From: Engelhardtia mirabilis
GTDB taxonomy: Bacteria > Planctomycetota > UBA1135 > GCA-002686595
Direction: 5' to 3'
DNA: 64,000 bases
NCBI GenBank assembly: GCA_007751255.1
Contig: CP036296.1
Span: 3,844,001-3,908,000 of the forward strand
The notes beneath the pieces are model-generated. The model ran no database searches, was not told where the DNA came from, and saw only the letters and a list, made by a program, of their open reading frames with translations. Made by a program: the position numbers and the translations under genes. The first letter of the stretch is position 1; each line of letters starts with the position of its first letter. Shown here piece by piece: positions 25,601 to 38,762 of the stretch.

Positions 25601-25737
25601 AGGATCGGCGTCCCGAAGCCGCGGGCTCGGACGGGCCGCCGGGGGACTGTCGAATATCTCGGCTCCGGAACACCGATTCAGTGATCGGGAGTGCAAATCC
25701 CGAGCACCCCTTCTCTGGAGCTGCGGCGGCTCCGCCG

Positions 25738-25743
25738 TAGGCT
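25738..25743 (+). promoter_or_regulatory. -10-like TAGGCT, sugar isomerase operon
   Basis: TAGGCT ends 7 nt before the ATG at 25751, predicting a leaderless mRNA. Two small inverted repeats lie upstream (CCGAT/ATCGG at 25673-25688 and CGGGA/TCCCG at 25686-25702) and could be regulator sites. Confidence 0.5.
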
Positions 25744-25750
25744 CTGCGCC

Positions 25751-26602
25751 ATGCAAGTCCACCGATCCCGCACCAGCGCCCTGGGTGTCTGTTCATGGTC
25801 CTTGCGCGCGGGCGCCGAGAGCGAGCTAGCGGCCGTGGTGGAGGCCGTCGGCGTCAGCCAAGTGCAGATGGCGCTCGATCCCCTGCGTCGCGGCGCCTGG
25901 TCCGCCGAGCGCTTGGTCGCTTCCCTGGAGTCGGTCGACGCCACTGTGCGCTCAGGGATGATGGGTACGGAGGGCGAGGACTATTCGACCCTGGAGACGA
26001 TCCGGCGCACGGGCGGGTTGGTCCCCGATCAGCATTGGCCTGCGAACCTGGCGGCCGCCCGCGGCAACGCCCGGGTGGCGCGGGAGCTCGGCCTGGAACT
26101 GGTCAGTCTGCACGCGGGTTTCCTGCCCGAGAAGCGCGGCGACGCCCTGCGCGCCCGGGTCCTCGACCGTCTGCGGCAGGTCGCCGACGTGTTCGGCGAA
26201 CAAGGCGTGCGCCTGGCCCTCGAGACCGGCCAGGAATCCGCCGCGACCCTGCTCGACGTCTTGGCGGAGCTCGACCATCCGGGGGTGGGCATCAACTTCG
26301 ACCCCGCCAACATGCTGCTCTACGGCATGGGCGAGCCCGTGGCCGCCCTGCGCGCGCTCCTGCCCCACGTGCTGCAGGTCCACGTCAAGGACGCGAGGTC
26401 CTCGCAGGTTCCCGGCGATTGGGGTCAGGAGGTCCCCGTTGGCACGGGCGAGGTCGATTGGACCGCCTTCTTCGCGGTCCTCGCGGCCGCGGGCTTCGGT
26501 GGTGACCTGATGATCGAGCGCGAGGCCGGCGATGACAGGCCCGGCGACATGCGCCTGGCCGCGGACCTGGTGCGACGCCACTGGCCGGCCGCGCGAGCTT
26601 GA
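25751..26602 (+). CDS. Sugar phosphate isomerase/epimerase-type TIM-barrel protein
   Basis: A 283-residue AP-endonuclease-2/xylose-isomerase-like TIM barrel. Metal-site motifs are visible: LVSLHAGFLPEK, RLALETGQE (metal Glu), GINFDPANMLLYG, VLQVHVKDAR and DLMIEREAG (second metal Glu). It has no signal peptide, so it is cytoplasmic. The Gfo/Idh gene follows 4 nt downstream, so the two are co-transcribed. Such pairs oxidise and rearrange sugars or inositols, or cleave 3-keto-glycosides. The exact reaction is not readable. The first ATG after TAGGCT is taken as the start; a longer frame from 25691 would begin upstream of the -10. Confidence 0.9.
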   Translation: MQVHRSRTSALGVCSWSLRAGAESELAAVVEAVGVSQVQMALDPLRRGAWSAERLVASLESVDATVRSGMMGTEGEDYSTLETIRRTGGLVPDQHWPANLAAARGNARVARELGLELVSLHAGFLPEKRGDALRARVLDRLRQVADVFGEQGVRLALETGQESAATLLDVLAELDHPGVGINFDPANMLLYGMGEPVAALRALLPHVLQVHVKDARSSQVPGDWGQEVPVGTGEVDWTAFFAVLAAAGFGGDLMIEREAGDDRPGDMRLAADLVRRHWPAARA

Positions 26603-26606
26603 ACCC

Positions 26607-27650
26607 ATGACGACTCCCACCAAACGCCCGATTCGTACCGGGGTCATCGGCCTGGGCTTCATGGGTCGCACGCACCTGGCGGCCTACGCCTCAGCCCACG
26701 GCGCGGGCCATCCCAACGAGCTGGTCGCCGTGGCCGATCGGAACGCGGACCGCCGCGCCGGAAAGCTGTCCGGGGGCGGCAACATCGATACGGGAGCCGC
26801 TGACTTCGATCCGGCCCTCGTGCGCGCTTACGAGCTGCCCGGGTCGCTCCTGGACGACGAGTCGGTGGAGCTGGTCAGCATCTGCACCCCCACCGAGACC
26901 CACGTGGACCTGGCCATCGCGGCGCTCGCGGCCGGCAAGCACGTGCTGGTCGAGAAACCCCTGGCCCTGGCCAGTTCCGAGGTCGAGCGCCTGGTCGCAG
27001 CCGCCCGCGAGGCCGCGACCCTCTGCATGCCGGCCATGTGTATTCGCTTCTGGCCTGGCTGGTCGTGGTTGACCGAGCGGGTTCGCGACGGACGCTACGG
27101 CGCGCTGCTCGGGCTCGACATCCAGCGCCTCGGCTCACGACCGTCCTGGAGCCCCGGCTTCTACTCGGATCCCGCGCGCTCGGGCGGCGCCCTGTTCGAC
27201 CTGCACGTGCACGACGTCGACTTCGTCGTGCAGTTGCTCGGCCGGCCCGTGGGTGTTGCGGCCAGCGGTGGCTACGACCACGTCTCGGCCCTCTACCGCT
27301 TCGCGCCTGGCGCGGACGGCCGCCCCGCGCCCCGCGTCGCGATCGGCGGGGGTTGGGACCAACCGCCGGGCTTCCCCTTCGAGATGTCCTTCCGCGCCGT
27401 GTTCGAAGGCGCGACCGCGGAGTACAGCCTGCGCGAAGCGGCCCCCTTGCGCGTCTTCATCGAGGATCGCGCCGAGCCGATCGAACTCGCGCCGCACACG
27501 GGCTACGAGCTGCAGGTGCGCGCGCTGCTGGACGCCATCGCCGGCGGCGCCGAGCGTCCGCCGGTGCAAGTCGCCGAGGCCCTCGAGGTCGCCCGCGTGC
27601 TCGAGCAACTGACAGCGGAACTCGGGCTGGATGCGCCCGGCGCGAGCTGA
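26607..27650 (+). CDS. Gfo/Idh/MocA-family oxidoreductase (cytoplasmic)
   Basis: A 347-residue NAD(P)-dependent sugar dehydrogenase. The Rossmann motif GVIGLGFMGRTH is near residues 12-23, SICTPTETHVDLAIAALAAGKHVLVEKPLAL contains the EKP catalytic lysine, and GGALFDLHVHDVDFVVQLLG holds the substrate-binding residues. It starts 4 nt after the isomerase stop and has no signal peptide. Together they form a two-gene cytoplasmic sugar-oxidation unit, mirrored by the Tat-exported pair at 33193-35546. Confidence 0.92.
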   Translation: MTTPTKRPIRTGVIGLGFMGRTHLAAYASAHGAGHPNELVAVADRNADRRAGKLSGGGNIDTGAADFDPALVRAYELPGSLLDDESVELVSICTPTETHVDLAIAALAAGKHVLVEKPLALASSEVERLVAAAREAATLCMPAMCIRFWPGWSWLTERVRDGRYGALLGLDIQRLGSRPSWSPGFYSDPARSGGALFDLHVHDVDFVVQLLGRPVGVAASGGYDHVSALYRFAPGADGRPAPRVAIGGGWDQPPGFPFEMSFRAVFEGATAEYSLREAAPLRVFIEDRAEPIELAPHTGYELQVRALLDAIAGGAERPPVQVAEALEVARVLEQLTAELGLDAPGAS

Positions 27651-29053: not shown

Positions 29054-30733
29054 TCAGGGGAGGAGATGAAGTGAGACCGGCGCACCGACGGCGGTGATTC
29101 CGAAGTGCACGGGATCGAAGGCCAGGCTGGCCTCGTTCACGAACAAGCCCGCGAGGGCCGGATCACTGTCGGGAGCGAGCGACAAGGTCGCCCGCGCTTC
29201 CCCGAGCGCGTCCGCGATCTGGAGCGGCTGACCGATCGGCGCCGAGCCGGCGAGGCTGGCGAGGGTCAAGGCGTCGACCTCGAGCGGCAGGTTCAGGCCG
29301 TCGAGCTGCAACCCCGGCGCGCTGCCCGAAACGCCGACCAGGAAGAGCGTCGGCGCGTTGGGCGGCAGACCGCGCGCGACGAGGTCCTGCACGCCGCCCT
29401 CGACGAGAGAGAGGCTCTCCGGGCAACCCGACAAGGATTCGAGCACCGTGGAGAGCTGCAAGTCGTAGACACGACCGGCCTGTAGACCACCGAAGCCCGC
29501 GCCCGCGGACTGCTCCGCCGCGCCGACCACGAGCTCGGTTCCCTGCGCGTCGATCGCCGAGCCGAAGCCAGGTCGTTCGGCGATGCTCGGCGCGCCCAGA
29601 TGAGCGCTCGCCAGCCAGCCGCCCGCGTAGCGATCAAACACATCGACTCCACCCTCGAGCAGGCTCGAGCCGGAGTGGCGCGGGCGGCCGACGAAACAGC
29701 GCTCGCCGGCGATCGCGACCGCGGAGCCCAGAGCGTCGCCCGGCGCGTGGTCGGGGACCGCCAACTCCGCGAGCGCCGAGTCCGGGTCTCCCAGGTCGAT
29801 CCACCAGGCCGAGCCGGCTGCGGCGCCCACGGGACTGTTGCCCGCGGCTCCAACCAGCAGGTCGAGCCCGCTCACATCGACCGCGGAGCCGAAGTAGCTG
29901 CCCGCGATGGCCGCGGGACCGTGGATCGTCCGCTCGACGACCGCGGCACCCGACGGGTCGAACAGGTAGACGAGAACGGCGCCGTTGAAGGGAACCGCTT
30001 GACCGGTCCCCGGAGCTCCCGCCACGAGTCGCACGCCGTCGGTGGCCAGCGAGGACCCCAGGCGATTGGGACCCGGCGGGAGCCCTGAACCACCGAGCTT
30101 GGCCGTGAGTACCGGGACTCCGCCGACGATCGAGAATCCGTACAACGCCCCGTCGTCAGTCCCGACGAAGGAGTGACTCGGCGCCCCGGCGTAGATCGTT
30201 TCACCGACGATCGCGACCGCGCTCCCGAGGCGATCGCCCGCGAGGGCGTCGGGCGCCGTGACGGTCGCCACCAGAGGCCAGGCGCCGCCCTGACGCTCGA
30301 AGACCAGCACAGCGCCTTGGTCGACGGCCGTGCCGTCGAAGCCGGGAACCCCGATGGCCACCCGCTCGCCCTCGATCGCGACGGCCGAGCCCAGGTCGTC
30401 GATGGGCTGCCCCGTCGGCAGTTCCAGCGTGGCCTCCTCGACCCACTGACCGGCGATCCGAGCGAAGACCGTGGCCGTCCCCTCGAGGCCGCTCAGCGAA
30501 CCGGGCAGGTCGGCCCGCGGTGCTCCCACGACCAATAGCTCGCCGTCCAGGGCCAAGGCGGCTCCGAACCGGTCCGCACCATCGGTGGTGATTCCCTGCA
30601 ACTCGAGCAGGCCGCACTGCGCCCTGGCGGACCCGGCGGCGAGGGCCAGCAGCGCCGCAGCGGTGAGGATCTCGGGCAGCAAGCGGGTCAACGGACGGGT
30701 CGGGGCGGATCGGTCGTCGTTGGTCGAAGTCAT
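29054..30733 (-). CDS. Secreted FG-GAP beta-propeller protein with shared C-terminal module
   Basis: A 559-residue exported protein. The signal peptide spans LLPEILTAAALLALAAGSARA (residues ~18-38). About seven FG-GAP-like blades follow, with the pattern DRFGAALALDGELLVVGAPRA, DLGSAVAIEGERVAIGVPGFDG, DRLGSAVAIVGETIYAGAPSHS and so on. Such repeats resemble the integrin-alpha propeller and serve adhesion or ligand binding at the surface. The last ~120 residues are the module shared with 28051 and 62071 (ESLSLVEGGVQDL, FLVGVSGSAPGLQLDG, LPLEVDALTL). It is divergent from the Kelch gene across an operator-like region. Confidence 0.88.
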   Translation of the reverse strand: MTSTNDDRSAPTRPLTRLLPEILTAAALLALAAGSARAQCGLLELQGITTDGADRFGAALALDGELLVVGAPRADLPGSLSGLEGTATVFARIAGQWVEEATLELPTGQPIDDLGSAVAIEGERVAIGVPGFDGTAVDQGAVLVFERQGGAWPLVATVTAPDALAGDRLGSAVAIVGETIYAGAPSHSFVGTDDGALYGFSIVGGVPVLTAKLGGSGLPPGPNRLGSSLATDGVRLVAGAPGTGQAVPFNGAVLVYLFDPSGAAVVERTIHGPAAIAGSYFGSAVDVSGLDLLVGAAGNSPVGAAAGSAWWIDLGDPDSALAELAVPDHAPGDALGSAVAIAGERCFVGRPRHSGSSLLEGGVDVFDRYAGGWLASAHLGAPSIAERPGFGSAIDAQGTELVVGAAEQSAGAGFGGLQAGRVYDLQLSTVLESLSGCPESLSLVEGGVQDLVARGLPPNAPTLFLVGVSGSAPGLQLDGLNLPLEVDALTLASLAGSAPIGQPLQIADALGEARATLSLAPDSDPALAGLFVNEASLAFDPVHFGITAVGAPVSLHLLP

Positions 30734-30948: not shown

Positions 30949-32979
30949 ATGCCGTTCCTGCCCGCCCTCGCCCTGTGTACGACCGTCGCCCTTGCCGCCG
31001 ACGACCCGGTCTCCAACGACCCGGTCTCCAACGACCCGGTCGCCAACGGCCCGGTCGCCAACGGCCACCAAGCCTCCACGACCCTACGTCGCGGTCGACT
31101 GAGCGCTCAGTTGCCGCGCGGCGTCACCAGCTTCGGCGCGGCCACGATCGGCAACCAGCTGTTCGTGCTGGGCGGATACTTCGGCACACCGCACGACTAC
31201 CACGTCGAGTCCCAGTCGGACGTCTTCTTGCGACTGGACGGGGCCAGCGGAGCTCTCCGGCTCCTGCCCGGCATCGGACCGATCCAAGGCACCGCGCTGG
31301 TCGCCGCGGGGACCGACCTGATCCAGGTTGGCGGCACGCGGATCCTCAACCGCCGGGATCAGGCCCAGGACCTGCGCTCGACCGATGAATGCCGGGCCTT
31401 CGACACGCTCACTTCAACTTGGCGCGACCTGCCGCCCCTGCCCGAACCGCGCTCCTCCCATGACGCCGTCGCCGTCGGCCGAACCGTCTACGTCGTGGGC
31501 GGCTGGCACCTGGGCGAGGGTGGGACCGAGGACTGGGCCACGACGGGCCTGCGACTCGACCTCGACGCCGAACAGCCGGCGTGGTCGGAGTTCGCGCAGC
31601 CCTTTCGATCGCGGGGCCTGGCCCTGGCCAGCAACGGCGACGAGCTACTGGCCATCGAGGGCATGTCCGATCTCGGCGACGTGGACGGCCGAAGCTGGAT
31701 CTTCGACCTCGACGGCGAGAGCTGGTCGGAGATCGAACCCTTCCCGGGATTCTCCTTCGGTGCCTCCGCCGTCGGCGGCGCGACGGGGTTCCTGGCTTCT
31801 GGGCGCGACGGCGTCCTGCGAAGGCTCGACGCCGACTCGGCGCGCTGGATCGACGAAGGAAGGCTGTGGTTTCCGCGCTTCTTCCACCGACTGGTGACGG
31901 AGCGAGGCACCGGTGACTTGCTCGTCGTCGGCGGCATCGGCAGCGGCGGCCGCCCCACCGCGATCGAGAGGTTGAGCCAAGCCCAGGACGGACCGCCCCT
32001 GCTGACCCTGGATGTCGCCTCTCCCATGGCCGCGCGCAGCCGCCAGGCCGTGGCCGTTGTTCGCGGCGACCTGATCCTGGTGGGCGGCAACAACGGCACC
32101 GAGCAGCACGACTTCGCCTCGGAGCGCTTCGAAGCCGAGAGCTGGCGGTTCGATCCGAGCGAGGGAACCTGGCTGCGACTCGCGGACGCGCCGGCCCCCC
32201 GTCAGAGTTCTGAGCTCGTGCAACTCGATCGCGGCACCCTGGCGTTGATCGGCGGCTTCGCCCCCGATGCGGGGCCTGCACGCAGTCGCGCCGAGGTTTG
32301 GACCTTCCGCAGCTCCACGGATCGCTGGATCGACGCCTCGCCGGCACTGCCCGAACCCCGCACGCAGTTCGGGATCGCGCAGGTGGCCGACCGACTGCTG
32401 ATCGCCGGCGGCATGGACTACGACGCGCAGCGGGTCGAGCCGTTCGGTCTGCCCCTCGCGCTGCTCGAAGCCGACCTGTCTGCGGACTCGCTCGAGTTCG
32501 TGCGTCGGTCGGAATCACTGCCCGAACCGCGCCGCGCCCACGCCTGCGCCAGCCTCGGCGGCGAGCTCTACCTGGTGGGTGGCATGGGGCCGAACTTCGC
32601 GCCTGTGGACGTCTGCCGCGCCTTCGATCCCCAGGCGGGTACCTGGCGGGAGGTCGCTGCACCCGTCGCGGCCCGTATCGGCGCCAGCCTGGTCCGGATC
32701 GGCGAGCGACTGGTCCTGGTGGGCGGCAACGTTGCCGGTGGAGGCGGGCGCGCCACCTCGATCGAGGTCTACGATCCCGCGCGGGATCGGTGGACGACCC
32801 TGGCCGCCGAACTGCCCTACCGCCAGGGACACGTCCATGCCGTGGCGTTCGGTCACGAACTCCTCGTCGCCACGACACAGGAGGTCGAGGGGCGACTCCT
32901 GTATGCACTGATCGACGTCGATCGAGTCGCCGCGCCCGTTGCTCAGGTCGAAGCGAGCAGCGCGATCGAAGGGCTCTGA
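30949..32979 (+). CDS. Secreted Kelch-repeat beta-propeller protein
   Basis: A 676-residue protein with a short signal peptide (LPALALCTTVALA). An N-terminal linker has near-identical DPVSN/DPVAN/GPVAN pentapeptides, encoded by 15-bp tandem repeats. It is followed by ten or more Kelch motifs (LFVLGGYFG, VYVVGGWHL, LILVGGNNG, LYLVGGMG and LVLVGGNV, each with downstream W and F positions). Enough blades exist for two propellers. A surface binding or polysaccharide-related role is typical, but no catalytic residues can be assigned. The stop is followed by a strong hairpin. Confidence 0.88.
   Translation: MPFLPALALCTTVALAADDPVSNDPVSNDPVANGPVANGHQASTTLRRGRLSAQLPRGVTSFGAATIGNQLFVLGGYFGTPHDYHVESQSDVFLRLDGASGALRLLPGIGPIQGTALVAAGTDLIQVGGTRILNRRDQAQDLRSTDECRAFDTLTSTWRDLPPLPEPRSSHDAVAVGRTVYVVGGWHLGEGGTEDWATTGLRLDLDAEQPAWSEFAQPFRSRGLALASNGDELLAIEGMSDLGDVDGRSWIFDLDGESWSEIEPFPGFSFGASAVGGATGFLASGRDGVLRRLDADSARWIDEGRLWFPRFFHRLVTERGTGDLLVVGGIGSGGRPTAIERLSQAQDGPPLLTLDVASPMAARSRQAVAVVRGDLILVGGNNGTEQHDFASERFEAESWRFDPSEGTWLRLADAPAPRQSSELVQLDRGTLALIGGFAPDAGPARSRAEVWTFRSSTDRWIDASPALPEPRTQFGIAQVADRLLIAGGMDYDAQRVEPFGLPLALLEADLSADSLEFVRRSESLPEPRRAHACASLGGELYLVGGMGPNFAPVDVCRAFDPQAGTWREVAAPVAARIGASLVRIGERLVLVGGNVAGGGGRATSIEVYDPARDRWTTLAAELPYRQGHVHAVAFGHELLVATTQEVEGRLLYALIDVDRVAAPVAQVEASSAIEGL
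31003..31062 (+). repeat. Four 15-bp tandem repeats in the Kelch gene
   Basis: Units of the GACCCGGTCTCCAAC type at 31003, 31018, 31033 and 31048. In frame they encode DPVSN-like pentapeptides just after the signal peptide, so unit gain or loss would change linker length without a frameshift. Confidence 0.75.
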
Positions 32980-33192: not shown

Positions 33193-34149
33193 TCAGCGCC
33201 CCAGCACGTCGTCCATGCGTGCGAGGATCTCCGCCAGGCGCGCGGCGTCGCCGCCGCCCACCTCGGCCGAGGCCCAGTGCTCGCCGCCGATGCCCCACTC
33301 GACGCTGTCCAGGGCCGCCATGGTGGTCTCCCAACCCACGTCGCCCGCGCCGATGGCGCAGTCGAAGCCGGCCCAGATGCCCTCGCTGTTCTGCTTGGCG
33401 CGGCTGTAGTCCTTGATGTCGATCTTCTTGATGCGCGCACCCAGGGCGTGGACCCAGTGGTCGGGCCAGGCCGAGCGCACCAGGTTGCCCAGGTCCAGGT
33501 ACCAACCCACGTGGCGGCTCTCGAAGCCGTCCACGTAGCGCGCCGCTTCGAGGGGACTGAGCAGGAAGTTGTTCCAGACGTTCTCGAAGGCGATCGTGAC
33601 GCCCAGCTCCTTGGCCAGGGGCACGACCCGCTCGATCTCCGCCACCGAGCGCTCGTAGGCTTGGTCGTAGCGAATCTGCGCGTTGACCACGGCCGGCACC
33701 AGCAGCACCGTCGACGCGCCGAAGGCCTTGGCGTCGTGCAGGGCCGTCTCCAGGCCCTTGCGACCGGCGGCGCGCACCGCGCGGTCGGCGTCGCCCAGGG
33801 TCTTGGTCCAGTGCACCGAGTCGACCACGCCGGGCACGCGCAGACCCGTGGCCTCGATCGCGGCCAGGACCTGGTCGCGGTCCAGGTCGGAAGGGCTGTC
33901 GAGCTCGACGCCGTCGTAGCCCAGGTCGCGCAGGATCTGGAACTTCTCGCCGATCGTCTCGCCGACGCCGACCATGCCGATCTTGCACGAGCGCTTGATG
34001 CCGCGCAGCCGGCCGCGGTTCTCCGCCGCCAGGCGCGCGGCGAGCCCACCCAGGGCACCGGGCCCATCCTGGCCCGCGGCAGCCGCTCCGCCCAGGGCCA
34101 GCGCGCCCAGCCCCAGCCCGAGCACCTCCCGTCGGTTGATGACGGACAT
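33193..34149 (-). CDS. Tat-exported sugar isomerase/epimerase-like TIM-barrel protein
   Basis: A 318-residue protein beginning with a twin-arginine signal (MSVINRREVLGLGLGALALGGAAAA), followed by an AP-endonuclease-2-type TIM barrel: YDGVELDSPSDLD, TVLLVPAVVNAQ, GVTIAFENVWNNF (metal Glu), VGWYLDLGNLV and IKKIDIKDYS. Its ATG overlaps the preceding stop codon by one base (TGATG), so translation is coupled. It is the third gene of a SUMF1, Gfo/Idh, isomerase operon. Tat export implies folding in the cytoplasm, with work in the periplasm or paryphoplasm. Relatives include 3-keto-glycoside lyases; this assignment is inference. Confidence 0.9.
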   Translation of the reverse strand: MSVINRREVLGLGLGALALGGAAAAGQDGPGALGGLAARLAAENRGRLRGIKRSCKIGMVGVGETIGEKFQILRDLGYDGVELDSPSDLDRDQVLAAIEATGLRVPGVVDSVHWTKTLGDADRAVRAAGRKGLETALHDAKAFGASTVLLVPAVVNAQIRYDQAYERSVAEIERVVPLAKELGVTIAFENVWNNFLLSPLEAARYVDGFESRHVGWYLDLGNLVRSAWPDHWVHALGARIKKIDIKDYSRAKQNSEGIWAGFDCAIGAGDVGWETTMAALDSVEWGIGGEHWASAEVGGGDAARLAEILARMDDVLGR

Positions 34150-35546
34150 CAGGCGAACTCGTACTTGCCGGCCTCGGGGTCGTCGCCGGCGGCGAGGTCG
34201 CCCCACTCGATCACGCCGCTCTCCATGCCGGGGGGGCCCAGGCGCTTGGTGCTGGCCAAGAGCTCGTCCCAGGTGATCGCGCGGCCCGAGTAGGCCGCCT
34301 CGCGGCCCATGATCGCCAACAGGTTGCTGGTGGTCATCCAGTCACCGTCGTTCATGGGCGTGCCGGCGCGGATCGACGCGAAGAGCTCGTCGTGCTCCTG
34401 CTGGTACATGTCGTTGCCCTCGCCCTCGTACTCCCAGCGCCAGTTCCCGGGACCGACGATCTCGTGGTACGGGGTCCAGTTCTCGATCGTCGCGCGCCCG
34501 GCGCTGCCGTAGAGGAAGTCGTTGTTCTCGCCGTAGCTGTTCGGCCACTGGCGCGCGAGCATGAACGCGCGCCTGCCGCCGGAGTACTCGTAGACCACGC
34601 CGAAGTGGTCGAAGGTGTTGCCCTTCTGGGGACCGCTGCGGGTCTGGCAGCCGCCGATGGCAATCGCGCGCTCGGGCGGCTCGTCGCCGAAGGCCCAGGA
34701 CTGCTTGTCGATCGAGTGGATCGCCTGCTCGACGATGTGGTCGCCCGACAGCCACGAGAAGTGGTGCCAGTTGCGCAGCTGCCACTCCGTGTCGCTCCAA
34801 CCCTCCTCGCGGTTGCGGTTACCGAGCACGCCCGTGTAGTAGTTCGTGTACATGGCCTGCACGTCGCCGATCGCGCCGGCGTGGATGCGCTCGAAGGTCG
34901 CGCGGTGCATCGCGTTGTAGCGCCAACAGAAGCCGGACACGAGCGACAGGCCCTTGGTCCGCGCGACCTCGCAGGCGGCGCGCACCTGGTGAATGCCGGG
35001 CACGTCCACGGCCATGGGCTTCTCGCAGAACACGTGCACGCCGCGCTCCACGGCGTAGGTCAGGTGCGCGGGCCGGAAGGCCGGCACGGACGTCAGCAGG
35101 ACCACGTCCACGCCGGAGTCGATCACCTGCTTGAAGGCCTCGAAGCCCACGAAGCGCCGCTCGGGCGCCACGTCCATGCGCGCGGCGTGGCCCTCCTCGG
35201 CCAGGGCCGTCTCGAGGTAGCTGCGGCTGCCCTCGAGGCGGTCCTCGAAGGCGTCGCCCATGGCCCACAGCACGACGCTGCCGTCCTCGGCGTGCAGGGC
35301 TTGCCAGGCCGCGCCGGTGCCCCGCCCGCCGCAACCGATCAGGCCGATCTTGAGCGTCGGCAGGTCCGCAGGCTGCTCGGCCGTCGCGCCCTGCTCCTGG
35401 GCCCGGGCCAAGCCGCCCAGGGCCAGGGGCGTGGCGAGCGCCGCCGCGCCCTTGAGCAGGGAACGCCGCGACGGACCGTAGACCGCCCAACCGGGTTCAC
35501 GCAGGTGCTCGGGGTTCGCGCCGTGGGGATGCAGGGGGTCGCTCAT
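34149..35546 (-). CDS. Tat-exported Gfo/Idh/MocA-family oxidoreductase
   Basis: A 465-residue dehydrogenase with a twin-arginine signal (SRRSLLKGAAALATPLALGGLA, residues ~26-47). The Rossmann motif IGLIGCGGRGTGA follows, with the catalytic GVHVFCEKPMAVD and a long C-terminal substrate domain (RNWHHFSWLSGDHIVEQAIHSID). Exported planctomycete members typically bind NAD(P) tightly and oxidise glycosides. The start overlaps the SUMF1 stop by 4 bp (ATGA). It forms a pair with the exported TIM-barrel protein. Confidence 0.93.
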   Translation of the reverse strand: MSDPLHPHGANPEHLREPGWAVYGPSRRSLLKGAAALATPLALGGLARAQEQGATAEQPADLPTLKIGLIGCGGRGTGAAWQALHAEDGSVVLWAMGDAFEDRLEGSRSYLETALAEEGHAARMDVAPERRFVGFEAFKQVIDSGVDVVLLTSVPAFRPAHLTYAVERGVHVFCEKPMAVDVPGIHQVRAACEVARTKGLSLVSGFCWRYNAMHRATFERIHAGAIGDVQAMYTNYYTGVLGNRNREEGWSDTEWQLRNWHHFSWLSGDHIVEQAIHSIDKQSWAFGDEPPERAIAIGGCQTRSGPQKGNTFDHFGVVYEYSGGRRAFMLARQWPNSYGENNDFLYGSAGRATIENWTPYHEIVGPGNWRWEYEGEGNDMYQQEHDELFASIRAGTPMNDGDWMTTSNLLAIMGREAAYSGRAITWDELLASTKRLGPPGMESGVIEWGDLAAGDDPEAGKYEFA

Positions 35547-36484
35547 GGGCGGGAGGTTCCGGTGGAGTCCTGGGGGGTGTCAGTGGGAGTCTGCGCGTCG
35601 CTCGCAGGGTCGTCCGCCGGGGGCGGCGACTCGCACACGACGCGAAATCCGGCGAAGGGACCGTCGGCCAACCACCACACGCTCTTGGGCAGGTTGGGGT
35701 CGCTGCGGTTCCAGGCCGAAGTCGGGGTCTTGGCGGCCATCACCGCCAGGTCGGCAGCGCGGTCGAGGTAGGCGCCGCCCATCAACTGTCCGGCGCCGTC
35801 CTCGGTCTCGACCCACTCGGCCACGTTGCCGTGGACGTCGTAGAGGCCGAAGCCGTTGGGCGCCAGGCCCGCCACCGGATGGGTCTTGCGGCGGGCGTTG
35901 TCCTTGAACCAGGCCACGGCCTCGAGGCCCTCGGCCGAGGAGCCGTGGTGCCAGGGACCGCGCGCACCGCCCAGGGCCGCGTGGGTCCACTCGCCGGCGG
36001 TGGGCAAGCGCCACTTGCGGCCGGTGTGGAGCGTCAGCCACTCGCAGAAGCCCCGCGCCGCCCGCAGGGAGACCGACCCCACCGGGTAGCCGTCGTGGCC
36101 GAAGCCGCGGTCCGCGGTGATGTAGGGCTTGGTCGGCCGGGACATGGCGTCCACGCCTTCGGGCAGCTCCGCCTCGAGCTGCTCGAAGACGAAGGCGTCG
36201 AACATGTCCCAGGTGACCTCGGTGGCGGAGATCCAGAAGGCGGGCTCCTCGCCCCGGGCCTCACCGGCCGGAGCAGGATTCGCGATCGGCACCATGGCGA
36301 GGTCCACGGTCGTGCCCGGTATCCTCGTCGCGAAGCCGCCCCCGGCGCCGTCCATCGGCGCCTGTCCAGCGATGGCAACACCCAGGAGCCCCATGCCCAC
36401 CAACCCGATCGACCCCGCGACCAACCGACGAAACGCCCGCCAGGGCCACAGAACGGGGCGAGTCGACAGTGTCGAGGGCGGCAT
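35543..36484 (-). CDS. SUMF1/FGE-fold protein (formylglycine-generating-enzyme superfamily)
   Basis: A 313-residue protein with an N-terminal signal anchor (RAFRRLVAGSIGLVGMGLLGVAIAG). The SUMF1 domain is recognised by ATEVTWDMFDAF, RAARGFCEWLTLHTGRKWRLPTAGEWTHAA, GLYDVHGNVAEW and PFAGFRVVCE. True formylglycine-generating enzymes need a pair of active-site cysteines near the C-terminus. I see only isolated cysteines, so sulfatase activation is unlikely; a binding or structural role, or another oxidase reaction, is more plausible. It is first in an operon with the exported Gfo/Idh and TIM-barrel genes. Its ATG shares two bases with the start codon of the divergent ApbE-fusion gene. Confidence 0.87.
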   Translation of the reverse strand: MPPSTLSTRPVLWPWRAFRRLVAGSIGLVGMGLLGVAIAGQAPMDGAGGGFATRIPGTTVDLAMVPIANPAPAGEARGEEPAFWISATEVTWDMFDAFVFEQLEAELPEGVDAMSRPTKPYITADRGFGHDGYPVGSVSLRAARGFCEWLTLHTGRKWRLPTAGEWTHAALGGARGPWHHGSSAEGLEAVAWFKDNARRKTHPVAGLAPNGFGLYDVHGNVAEWVETEDGAGQLMGGAYLDRAADLAVMAAKTPTSAWNRSDPNLPKSVWWLADGPFAGFRVVCESPPPADDPASDAQTPTDTPQDSTGTSRP

Positions 36485-38762
36485 GGATAGGGCGATCGCG
36501 TTGGGGCGAGCGGTTCTGACGGGCCTGGTGGCGCTGGCGGCGACCGGGTCGGTCGCGTGTAGCTCGGCGGCCCAGGTCGAAGCCGTGGATCGGACCGTCG
36601 GAGCGGGTCAGTTGGAGCAGTTCGAGTATAGGCGCCTGGCCATGGGCTGCGAGGCGCGGCTGTTGCTGTGGTCGGCGAGCGAGGGTCAGGCCCGGGCCGC
36701 CGCCCGAGCGGCCTTCGCACGCCTGACCGAGCTGGACCGCAGCCTGTCGGACTACAAGCCGACCGGACCGGTGGCCGAGGTCGCGGCAGGGGCCGGCGCC
36801 GCGGTCGCCACCGACGAGACGCTGATCGCCTGCCTGATCGCCTCCACGAGCGTGGCCGCGGCCTCACAGGGCGCCTTCGATCCCACGGCCGCGCCGGTGA
36901 CCCACCTGTGGCGCGAAGCTCGCCACACGGACACGCTTCCCACCGCCGCTGACGTCGACGCGGCCGCCGCACTCGTCGACTGGACCCGCCTGGCCATCGA
37001 CCCCGAGGCCGGCACGGTCGCACTCGCAAGCCCGGGCATGAGCCTCGACCTCGGTGGCGTGGCGAAGGGCTTCGCAGCCGAGGAGTTGCTCGAGGTCCTG
37101 ACCGAACTGGGCCACCCCCGGGCCCTGGTCGACCTCGGCGGCGATCTGGCCCTGGGGGACGCGCCCCCCGAGCGCGCGGGCTGGCGCGTCCTGGCCGGGG
37201 TCGGTGAGGGCGCGCGAGTGCTCGAGCTGACCCAAGCTTGCGTGGCCACCTCCGGCGCCACCGAACAGTTCATCGAGGCCGACGGCCGCCACCTCTCGCA
37301 CATCGTCGACCCGCGCAGCGGATGGCCGGTGACCCACGGCCGGATCGTGACCGCCGTGGTCCAGCGCGCCGCCGGTCGTCCTGCCGGCGCTTGGTCCGAC
37401 GCCCTGGCCTCGGCCGCCAGCGTGCTCTCGGTTCCCGCGGCCGAGCGGCTGGTCGCCGGGTTCGAAGGCGCGATGCTCGCCGTCCAGCACGAGGGCACCC
37501 GCCCCCTGTTCGACGGCGAGTCCCTGGCCGGTTGGACCACCACCGGCGGGCGCTATGACGGGGAGGCCCAGTGGACCGTCGAGGACGGCGAGTTGGTGGG
37601 GCGCACGGGCGCTGGCGGCGAGGGCGGGCTGATCTACACCGACGAGCTGTTCACCGCCTGCGAGCTCGAGCTCGACGTGAAGCTCGAGTACCCCTACGAC
37701 TCCGGCATCTTCCTGCGCATGCTACCGCCGGACACGGGGCTCAAGGGCGCCCAGGTGACCCTCGATCACCGGCCCGGCGGGGAGATCGCGGGGATCTACG
37801 CCGACGGTTGGTTGGAGCACAATCCCGAGGCCGAAGCGCACTTCAAAAAGGACGAGTGGAACCACGTGCGCGTTCGCACCACCGGCTTCGACTTCCGCAT
37901 CGAAGTCTGGCTGAACGGCACCAAGGTCACCGACTACCGCTTGCCCGAGGGCACGCCGGGCTACGCGCCCCACGGGCGCATCGGCCTACAGGTGCATCCG
38001 GCGGACGCCGACGCGGCCTCGCGCTCGGTGCGCTTCCGCGACATCCGCGTGCGCTCGCTGCCGATCTTCGGCGAGGAGCTGTTCGAGGAGAACCCCAAGG
38101 CGGCCGCAGGCGTTCTGCGCCCCAAGGCGCCTGCGGCCAGCGACGGTGAATCCTCGGACGCTGGCGCCTGGCGCGACCTGCTGGCCAAGGGTCTCGACGG
38201 CCTGATGACCCGCGGCGACGGCGAGGGCTACACCGTCGAGCGCGGCGTGCTCTCGATCCCCAGCGACGGCGGCGGGGAGATTGGCACCGTCGACGACTTC
38301 CGGGACTTCCGCCTGACGGCCGAGTTCAACATCGCGCGCATGGCCAACTCCGGCCTCTACCTGCGCGCCTCGCGCGAGCCCGGCAACTCCTCCTACTCGG
38401 GCGCCGAGGTGCAGATCCTCGACGACTACAACTGGGAGACCGAGACCAACTCGACCCTGGTGGACTACCAGTTCACCGGTGGCCTCTACGGGGCCGTCGC
38501 GCCGCCGCCGCTGGAGCTGAAGGGCTACCGACCCCACGGCGAGTGGAATCGCTACGAGGTGCTCTACCGCGGCAGCCGCCTGGCCGTGGCCTTGAACGGG
38601 TTGGCCCTCTACGACGTCGACACCCTCGCCCTGGAGGTCGAGCCGCCCTTCGCGCAGCGCGCCGAGTCCGGCTTCATCGGCTTCCAGCGCTATCCCGCCG
38701 ACACGGTCGAGGACCAGGCCGCGATCCGCGTGCGCAACTTCTTCGTGCAGCCGCTGCGCTGA
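36483..38762 (+). CDS. Lipoprotein fusing ApbE (FMN transferase) to two DUF1080 domains
   Basis: A 759-residue protein. The signal ends near Cys26 (ATGSVAC, an imperfect lipobox). ApbE domain at ~45-335: YRRLAMGCEARL, DRSLSDYKP, MSLDLGGVAKGFAAEELL (core motif), LVDLGGDL and HIVDPRSGWPVTH. The first DUF1080 (3-keto-disaccharide hydrolase/LamG-like) domain starts at ~342 with LFDGESLAGW; the second runs ~560-755. ApbE enzymes attach FMN to threonine in exported electron-transfer proteins; DUF1080 proteins act on 3-keto-glycosides. I know no standard family with this fusion. It sits back-to-back with an exported Gfo/Idh operon, suggesting linked sugar oxidation and flavin chemistry outside the cytoplasm. 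A TTG at 36501 is an alternative start. Confidence 0.88.
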   Translation: MDRAIALGRAVLTGLVALAATGSVACSSAAQVEAVDRTVGAGQLEQFEYRRLAMGCEARLLLWSASEGQARAAARAAFARLTELDRSLSDYKPTGPVAEVAAGAGAAVATDETLIACLIASTSVAAASQGAFDPTAAPVTHLWREARHTDTLPTAADVDAAAALVDWTRLAIDPEAGTVALASPGMSLDLGGVAKGFAAEELLEVLTELGHPRALVDLGGDLALGDAPPERAGWRVLAGVGEGARVLELTQACVATSGATEQFIEADGRHLSHIVDPRSGWPVTHGRIVTAVVQRAAGRPAGAWSDALASAASVLSVPAAERLVAGFEGAMLAVQHEGTRPLFDGESLAGWTTTGGRYDGEAQWTVEDGELVGRTGAGGEGGLIYTDELFTACELELDVKLEYPYDSGIFLRMLPPDTGLKGAQVTLDHRPGGEIAGIYADGWLEHNPEAEAHFKKDEWNHVRVRTTGFDFRIEVWLNGTKVTDYRLPEGTPGYAPHGRIGLQVHPADADAASRSVRFRDIRVRSLPIFGEELFEENPKAAAGVLRPKAPAASDGESSDAGAWRDLLAKGLDGLMTRGDGEGYTVERGVLSIPSDGGGEIGTVDDFRDFRLTAEFNIARMANSGLYLRASREPGNSSYSGAEVQILDDYNWETETNSTLVDYQFTGGLYGAVAPPPLELKGYRPHGEWNRYEVLYRGSRLAVALNGLALYDVDTLALEVEPPFAQRAESGFIGFQRYPADTVEDQAAIRVRNFFVQPLR

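Follow-up and report, generated by a model that had tools for sequence, protein, structure and literature searches.

An ApbE–DUF1080 Fusion Protein of Engelhardtia mirabilis and the Genes Conserved around Its ApbE Type in Planctomycetota

The Fusion Gene and Its Protein

We analyzed a stretch of 64,000 nucleotides (nt) from the planctomycete Engelhardtia mirabilis (CP036296.1, positions 3,844,001–3,908,000; hereafter the window), in which one gene encodes an ApbE flavin transferase domain followed by two DUF1080 domains. Divergent from this gene runs the operon that a first-pass annotation of the same DNA had described, with a Gfo/Idh oxidoreductase and a triosephosphate isomerase (TIM) barrel protein; its first gene codes for a protein with the fold of the formylglycine-generating enzyme (FGE/SUMF1; Table 1). 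Loci are labeled L and genomes G, with G000 as the genome of the window. The gene cluster conserved around this type of ApbE is a larger finding than the fusion itself.

The fusion frame extends from an ATG at 36483 to 38762 and contains no internal stop. Pfam assigns residues 54–326 to PF02424 (ApbE) with 182.5 bits against a cut-off of 25.6. The two PF06439 stretches of the window protein reach 208.7 bits together (cut-off: 26.8), and when scored separately in a genome search they reach 124 and 91.8 bits, both above this cut-off; no other frame of the genome contains two such matches. DLGGVAKGF and HIVDPRSGWPV, previously named as ApbE motifs, were both located in the translation. Since the genome consists of 2 contigs and the single-frame fusion recurs at 10 loci from 10 genomes, we can rule out the assembly artefact that the first-pass annotation had allowed for. 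The intact frame, the Pfam scores, and the 10 genomes confirm that ApbE and two DUF1080 domains form one protein. The fusion scores 72.1 of 498 bits with the NCBIfam model PRK10461, below its cut-off; because this equivalog model is narrow, the miss means that the fusion is not that orthologue, and nothing more.

The N-terminus of the fusion is signal-like by eye and contains the residues GSVAC, which we take to agree with the PROSITE lipobox pattern. Four fused relatives (L054, L055, L057, and L059), also read by eye, have signal-like N-termini, but the lipobox Cys was not seen in them. The lipoprotein signal claimed earlier thus has a counterpart in the window and not in these relatives, and we assign the fusion to the lipoproteins only weakly. 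A scan of positions 36250–36700 found no promoter or terminator. The FGE-like gene and the fusion, each taken as its longest open reading frame (ORF), overlap at CATG (36482–36485), with no promoter space between the two ATGs; the true start of the FGE-like gene probably lies further inside its ORF.

Table 1. Features of the Window Discussed in the Text
Feature	Position (nt)	Strand	Basis and remarks
ApbE–DUF1080–DUF1080 fusion protein, 759 residues	36483..38762	+	ORF list, Pfam; signal-like N-terminus, possible lipobox GSVAC
ApbE flavin mononucleotide (FMN) transferase domain	36642..37460	+	Pfam, alignments; triad S257, H273, D306; aromatic Y91; D189/K195 of DLGGVAKG
First PF06439 domain (3-keto-disaccharide hydrolase/DUF1080)	37497..38054	+	Pfam/profile matches
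Second PF06439 domain	38169..38756	+	Genome profile search
FGE/SUMF1-fold protein, first gene of divergent operon	35543..36484	−	Pfam, profiles; lacks the FGE CxxxxC
Gfo/Idh/MocA oxidoreductase, twin-arginine motif SRRSLLKG	34149..35546	−	Pfam, profiles
Xylose-isomerase-like TIM barrel (AP_endonuc_2), twin-arginine motif NRREVLG	33193..34206	−	Pfam, profiles
Second TIM barrel (TIM5), no twin-arginine motif, first gene of TIM–Gfo pair	25685..26602	+	Profiles
Second Gfo/Idh, no twin-arginine motif, candidate 3-keto-sugar reductase	26607..27650	+	Profiles

Active Site of the ApbE Domain

Residues were assigned by alignment to solved ApbE structures and 106 related sequences, with their roles taken from PMC12052999 and PMC4767422. 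In this alignment, the window ApbE retains the S257-H273-D306 catalytic triad, the DLGG-AKG motif, the metal-site Asp, and S310. Among the related sequences, Ser is kept in 104 of 106, and His and Asp in all 106; the ten fused proteins contain all three. These residues give no sign of the defective active site that the first-pass annotation had allowed for, and we predict that the domain is an active FMN transferase. An in-frame TSGAT of the fusion was rejected as a flavinylation site, since the alignment identifies it as the TSG motif of the active site.

At position 91 the window protein has Tyr; of the 106 related sequences, 73 carry Tyr there, 31 Trp, and one each His and Phe. According to PMC4767422, a Tyr in contact with the flavin ring is a feature of those Ftp proteins that bind flavin adenine dinucleotide (FAD). 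Since the window Tyr corresponds to this contact, an Ftp-type FAD pyrophosphatase is the less likely reading; 31 of the 106 relatives carry Trp at this position.

Genes Conserved around This ApbE Type

A search of 199 related genomes gave 98 with a match at E <= 1e-40 (the close set), and a phylum-wide search of 392 genomes gave 105 at E <= 1e-38 (the wider set). Neighbors were counted where the fetched sequence included 900 nt or more upstream of ApbE, which was so at 64 close and 39 wider loci; L127, L128, L150, and L202 have shorter flanks and were excluded. From the 105 matching genomes of the phylum-wide search, 40 loci were chosen by hand, and since the genomes are related, the draws are not independent. 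At most loci the fetched sequence extends to about 7 kb or stops at a contig end. Neighbor profiles were trained on the first locus set and then run on all loci, so that the training loci are included in the counts.

With these profiles, we found a divergent FGE-like gene within 1.1 kb of ApbE, just upstream on the other strand, at 59/64 loci of the close set and 25/39 of the wider set, and a Gfo/Idh gene within 6 kb at 59/64 and 27/39. Of the partners of this ApbE type, the FGE-like protein is the most constant. As the genome of the window contains 41 FGE-type matches, we roughly estimate that chance would give an FGE neighbor at no more than a few percent of loci. A TIM barrel gene was found at 20/64 and 9/39 loci, and DUF1080 within 15 kb at no fewer than 14/64 and 6/39; DUF1080 is not the core partner. 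The earlier expectation that the operon travels with ApbE thus held for the FGE/SUMF1 and Gfo/Idh genes and only in part for the TIM barrel. No FGE-like or Gfo/Idh profile match was found at the Planctomycetaceae locus L046, at L047 from Acidobacteria, or at L048–L052 (Halanaerobium, Erysipelotrichaceae, Lachnospiraceae), L047–L052 being the sole loci examined outside the phylum.

The catalytic Cys pair of FGE follows the pattern CxxxxC. None of the 83 linked FGE-like proteins contains this pair after the GG-Y/W stretch, and since it is missing, we rejected the possibility that the gene codes for a true formylglycine-generating enzyme.

The oxidoreductases and TIM barrels fall into two groups by their export signals. 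A twin-arginine motif is present in 114 of 116 strong Gfo matches that are not beside TIM5, compared with 0 of 13 beside TIM5, and in 23 of 23 members of the first TIM family, compared with 1 of 13 TIM5 proteins. The TIM5–Gfo pair occurs in the window (25685–27650) and near 12 other ApbE loci. On the window Gfo/Idh the Pfam model TAT_signal scores 19.5 of 22.7, slightly under the cut-off. This pattern suggests that the Gfo/Idh and TIM set is in part exported and that the TIM5–Gfo pair is cytoplasmic. Kelch-repeat and FG-GAP proteins (30949–32979 and 29054–30691) adjoin the operon and are apparently unrelated.

A Second Layout

At 14 loci, two Gfo/Idh genes flank an ApbE gene on the same strand, which also encodes a membrane protein with one CxxCH motif. 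This protein (cluster c3, for example L080:4687-5484) has several hydrophobic stretches by eye and no Pfam match above cut-off. It was found at 15 loci, 14 of them with the Gfo–ApbE–Gfo order; the fifteenth, L102, has weak ApbE matches only. Since 13 of the 14 loci were fetched owing to a nearby DUF1080 (two domains in 12, one in L106), the link of this layout to DUF1080 is selection-biased. One of the 14 loci is in the genome of the window: L165 (G000:C1:2010000-2025000) contains Gfo/Idh, an ApbE without signal, and Gfo/Idh, followed by two large sulfatases, with the CxxCH membrane protein 5.8 kb away and running into the edge of the examined stretch.

The ApbE of this layout forms a separate branch of the ApbE tree, and its profile match starts about 50–140 nt after the preceding Gfo/Idh match, which leaves little space for a signal peptide. 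In a partly different set of 14 (L095 replaces L165), Ser and His are present in 14/14, the Asp position holds Asp in 12 and Glu in 2, and the Gly of TSG is Ala in 14/14. The layout favors a passage of electrons from Gfo/Idh to the membrane and is the best support for it, though it is not the layout of the window. A Gfo/Idh protein at L093 (2824–4080) is the sole one with the strict flavinylation motif described below; the motif is in its last residues (DPETGAT), and its second-layout relatives lack the acceptor Thr.

Distribution of the Fusion

The ten single-frame fusions (G000, that is, the window, G040, G023, G016, G172, G335, G323, G375, G235, and G217) belong to three families (f1, f27, and f47). 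A likely eleventh, in G019 (L056), is truncated by a contig end. A tree of 125 ApbE domains places each of the ten fused ones within one group of 15 with a Shimodaira–Hasegawa-like approximate likelihood ratio (SH-aLRT) of 94. The other five rows of the group were scored as unfused, among them L108, which is ended by a contig boundary. Four changes of the fused/unfused label are needed on the tree, in which the internal branching order of the group is not resolved. From this tree a single old origin of the fusion appears plausible.

ApbE and double DUF1080 occur as separate proteins in many genomes. At L064, L065, L068, and L105 an unfused double DUF1080 lies near ApbE and the same genes. At L081 (9229–11217) a ThuA domain is fused ahead of the double DUF1080 protein; ThuA is linked to 3-keto chemistry, which this fusion may fit. 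A pattern-based scan of genome contigs gave 7 loci, each of which matched the ApbE part only, and a plasmid search gave 80 records with a partial match, none covering 80%.

Proposed Function

Planctomycetes commonly possess exported Gfo/Idh dehydrogenases, which poses the question of where these enzymes pass their electrons. The reading that we favor, tentatively, is a conserved exported sugar-oxidation module of Planctomycetota with a dedicated ApbE that loads FMN onto a carrier for Gfo/Idh electrons. It draws on features of the sequences, namely the domains, the active-site residues, the gene linkage, the fusion in 10 genomes, and the presence of twin-arginine motifs in only part of the proteins; the C3 chemistry, the compartments, the electron route, and the carrier are what we infer. 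In such a module, the Gfo/Idh protein exported by the twin-arginine translocation (Tat) pathway would act outside the cytoplasm and oxidize a glycoside, with C3 as the probable position. The DUF1080 domains and the exported TIM barrel would cleave or hydrate the 3-keto product. The products would enter the cell, where the TIM–Gfo pair without export signals could return the keto sugar to metabolism. Because the sugar would be oxidized outside the cell and reduced inside it, the two reactions could not offset each other within a single compartment, and the exported dehydrogenase would require an acceptor. ApbE would attach FMN to a putative carrier that passes Gfo/Idh electrons to the membrane, and the tether between ApbE and DUF1080 would put flavin loading and 3-keto cleavage into one exported protein. 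For DUF1080, PMC9007349 ties the domain to the hydrolysis of 3-ketotrehalose and proposes a periplasmic hydrolysis of 3'-ketolactose.

A number of observations weigh against this proposal. Classical ApbE substrates carry the motif D-x-x-[ST]-G-A-[ST] (PMC12052999). This strict motif occurs in 0/93 FGE-like, 1/184 Gfo (that of L093), 0/27 and 0/18 TIM, and 0/65 and 0/60 DUF1080 stretches; the loose form [ST]GA[ST] occurs in 13 Gfo, 5 TIM, and 1 DUF1080 stretches at scattered, not conserved positions. ORF clusters that do not mostly overlap assigned genes are common to at most 9 of 68 loci, with flanks limited by contig ends; there is therefore no further conserved neighbor family and no transmembrane electron carrier found in the layout of the window, the CxxCH membrane protein being confined to the second layout. 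Of the 39 wider loci, 14 lack the divergent FGE-like gene, and at 12 no Gfo/Idh gene was present within 6 kb. At L061 the FGE–Gfo–TIM operon faces a double DUF1080 with no ApbE part between them, and at L062 (3136–4851) the ApbE part of the fusion is reduced to about 180 residues without the active-site motifs while the DUF1080 domains are intact; both genomes have ApbE genes elsewhere. PMC9007349 also names an endo-xanthanase/lichenase with DUF1080, so that 3-keto chemistry is not certain. Finally, shared regulation alone may explain the FGE–ApbE gene order.

Other candidates for the flavin carrier were sought. The strict motif is held singly by five other ORFs at 5 of 108 loci; these were rejected as a common substrate, as Pfam names only two of them (trypsin-like and beta-helix) and they share no family. 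Neither a substrate domain nor a conserved motif, the marks of a flavinylation cluster, was found beside this apbE. The genome of the window contains six ApbE genes. One of them lies 2.8 kb from an FMN_bind gene, another beside a DUF3570 gene, and a third near P0002 (IAGATLSA), which we read as FMN_bind-like and for which Pfam made no such call. The FMN_bind and DUF3570 matches of the genome lie solely by ApbE genes other than that of the window, and DUF2271 has no match. The suggestion of the first-pass annotation that sugar oxidation feeds a flavin is plausible, but it gained no support from this distribution, from the motif scan of the partners, or from the search for an additional conserved neighbor. 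Three of the six ApbE genes, including that of the window, have a Gfo/Idh gene no more than 3 kb away; among 100,000 random placements, 4 were equally close. The third of these, at L164 (G000:C1:325700-340500), is arranged tail to tail with a twin-arginine Gfo/Idh, and no flavin carrier was noticed in its gene list.

Alternative Explanations

Just behind the proposed electron-carrier module, and nearly as likely, we rank a redox-neutral 3-keto-glycoside pathway of oxidation, elimination, hydration, and re-reduction, in which the exported Gfo/Idh would keep its nicotinamide adenine dinucleotide, NAD(P), bound and a co-regulated bystander ApbE would modify a respiratory protein encoded elsewhere. 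Among solved structures, the sequence matches of Gfo/Idh include aldose-aldose oxidoreductase and glucose-fructose oxidoreductase, which retain their NADP. The window set of Gfo, TIM, TIM, and Gfo matches in kind the levoglucosan pathway LgdA–LgdB1–LgdB2–LgdC, which consists of a dehydrogenase, two sugar-isomerase-like proteins, and a Gfo/Idh reductase (PMC7676230), and the operon at L061 stands without a fused ApbE. On the other side, ApbE and Gfo/Idh are linked repeatedly, in two layouts and in genomes from across the phylum. Moreover, each of the other three ApbE genes of the same genome has a classical substrate gene about 3 kb away or closer (in one case by our own reading), so that a distant substrate would be an exception.

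A further idea, which we hold to be doubtful, is a new flavinylation system of Planctomycetota: an orphan ApbE type, in some cases joined to domains that cleave 3-keto-glycosides, would load FMN at a non-canonical site on the FGE-like or Gfo/Idh protein of the Tat-exported module and thereby form a relay from NAD to FMN that serves sugar oxidation outside the cytoplasm. That ApbE flavinylates some member of the cluster (FGE-like, Gfo/Idh, or DUF1080) at such a site and so makes a new class of flavoprotein is unlikely in our estimate. Consistent with modification inside the cluster are the intact triad of this orphan ApbE type, the constancy of the FGE-like neighbor, and the precedent of an ApbE joined to its own substrate domain DUF2271 in one protein (reported in PMC8238504). 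A C-terminal PG-x-[ST] tail is present in 58/72 and 27/34 linked Gfo proteins compared with 10/74 others. This tail may merely mark a subfamily, its Thr is absent in the window, L054, L107, and others, and consensus lines read by eye contain no Ser/Thr common to all Gfo subgroups. Since it is absent in the window, we did not keep the tail as the main case of a flavinylation target.

That the fusion is functionally neutral, with neighboring genes joined by stop loss and no working tie between the domains, would fit the many genomes with separate proteins and the missing or shrunken ApbE part at L061 and L062, but seems improbable given ten fused loci in three families with the triad in all, and the unfused double DUF1080 that also lies near ApbE and the same genes at four loci.

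Comparison with Known Systems

Like Ftp of Treponema pallidum and ApbE of Vibrio cholerae (PF02424), the window ApbE has a full domain with Ser-His-Asp, DLGG-AKG, a metal-site Asp plus Thr/Ser, and a signal-like N-terminus; unlike these proteins it is fused to two DUF1080 domains, and no canonical substrate or motif was found in its cluster. The double-DUF1080 protein of PDB entry 4jqt has tandem PF06439-like domains that align over residues 4–374 of a 423-residue query. Its chain of 431 residues has no space for an ApbE domain, in contrast to the fusion.

The levoglucosan pathway (PMC7676230) resembles the window in its gene set, to which the latter adds twin-arginine motifs on part of the proteins as well as DUF1080, ApbE, and the FGE-like protein. 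Caulobacter LacABC with its DUF1080 protein (PMC9007349) shares the 3-oxidation of glycosides outside the cytoplasm and the proposed cleavage by DUF1080, but LacABC is a membrane-bound dehydrogenase, whereas the window has an exported-type Gfo/Idh and ApbE.

The flavinylation gene clusters of Meheust et al. 2021 (PMC8238504) likewise place ApbE inside a conserved gene cluster; the partners here are Gfo/Idh, FGE-like, and TIM-barrel genes. The terms "Planctomycet", "Gfo", and "formylglycine" have 0 occurrences in the main text of that paper, and Gfo, Planctomycet, and four further terms are absent from PMC11334425. Among the matches listed in the open-licence literature, judged from titles and the beginnings of abstracts, no description of the cluster was found. 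Its ApbE group is well defined and orphan, with a substrate that cannot be guessed from the known motif. The conserved association with a flavin transferase, present in two layouts, offers a testable answer to the question of electron disposal by exported Gfo/Idh proteins, and hints at an undescribed way of oxidizing sugars outside the cytoplasm.

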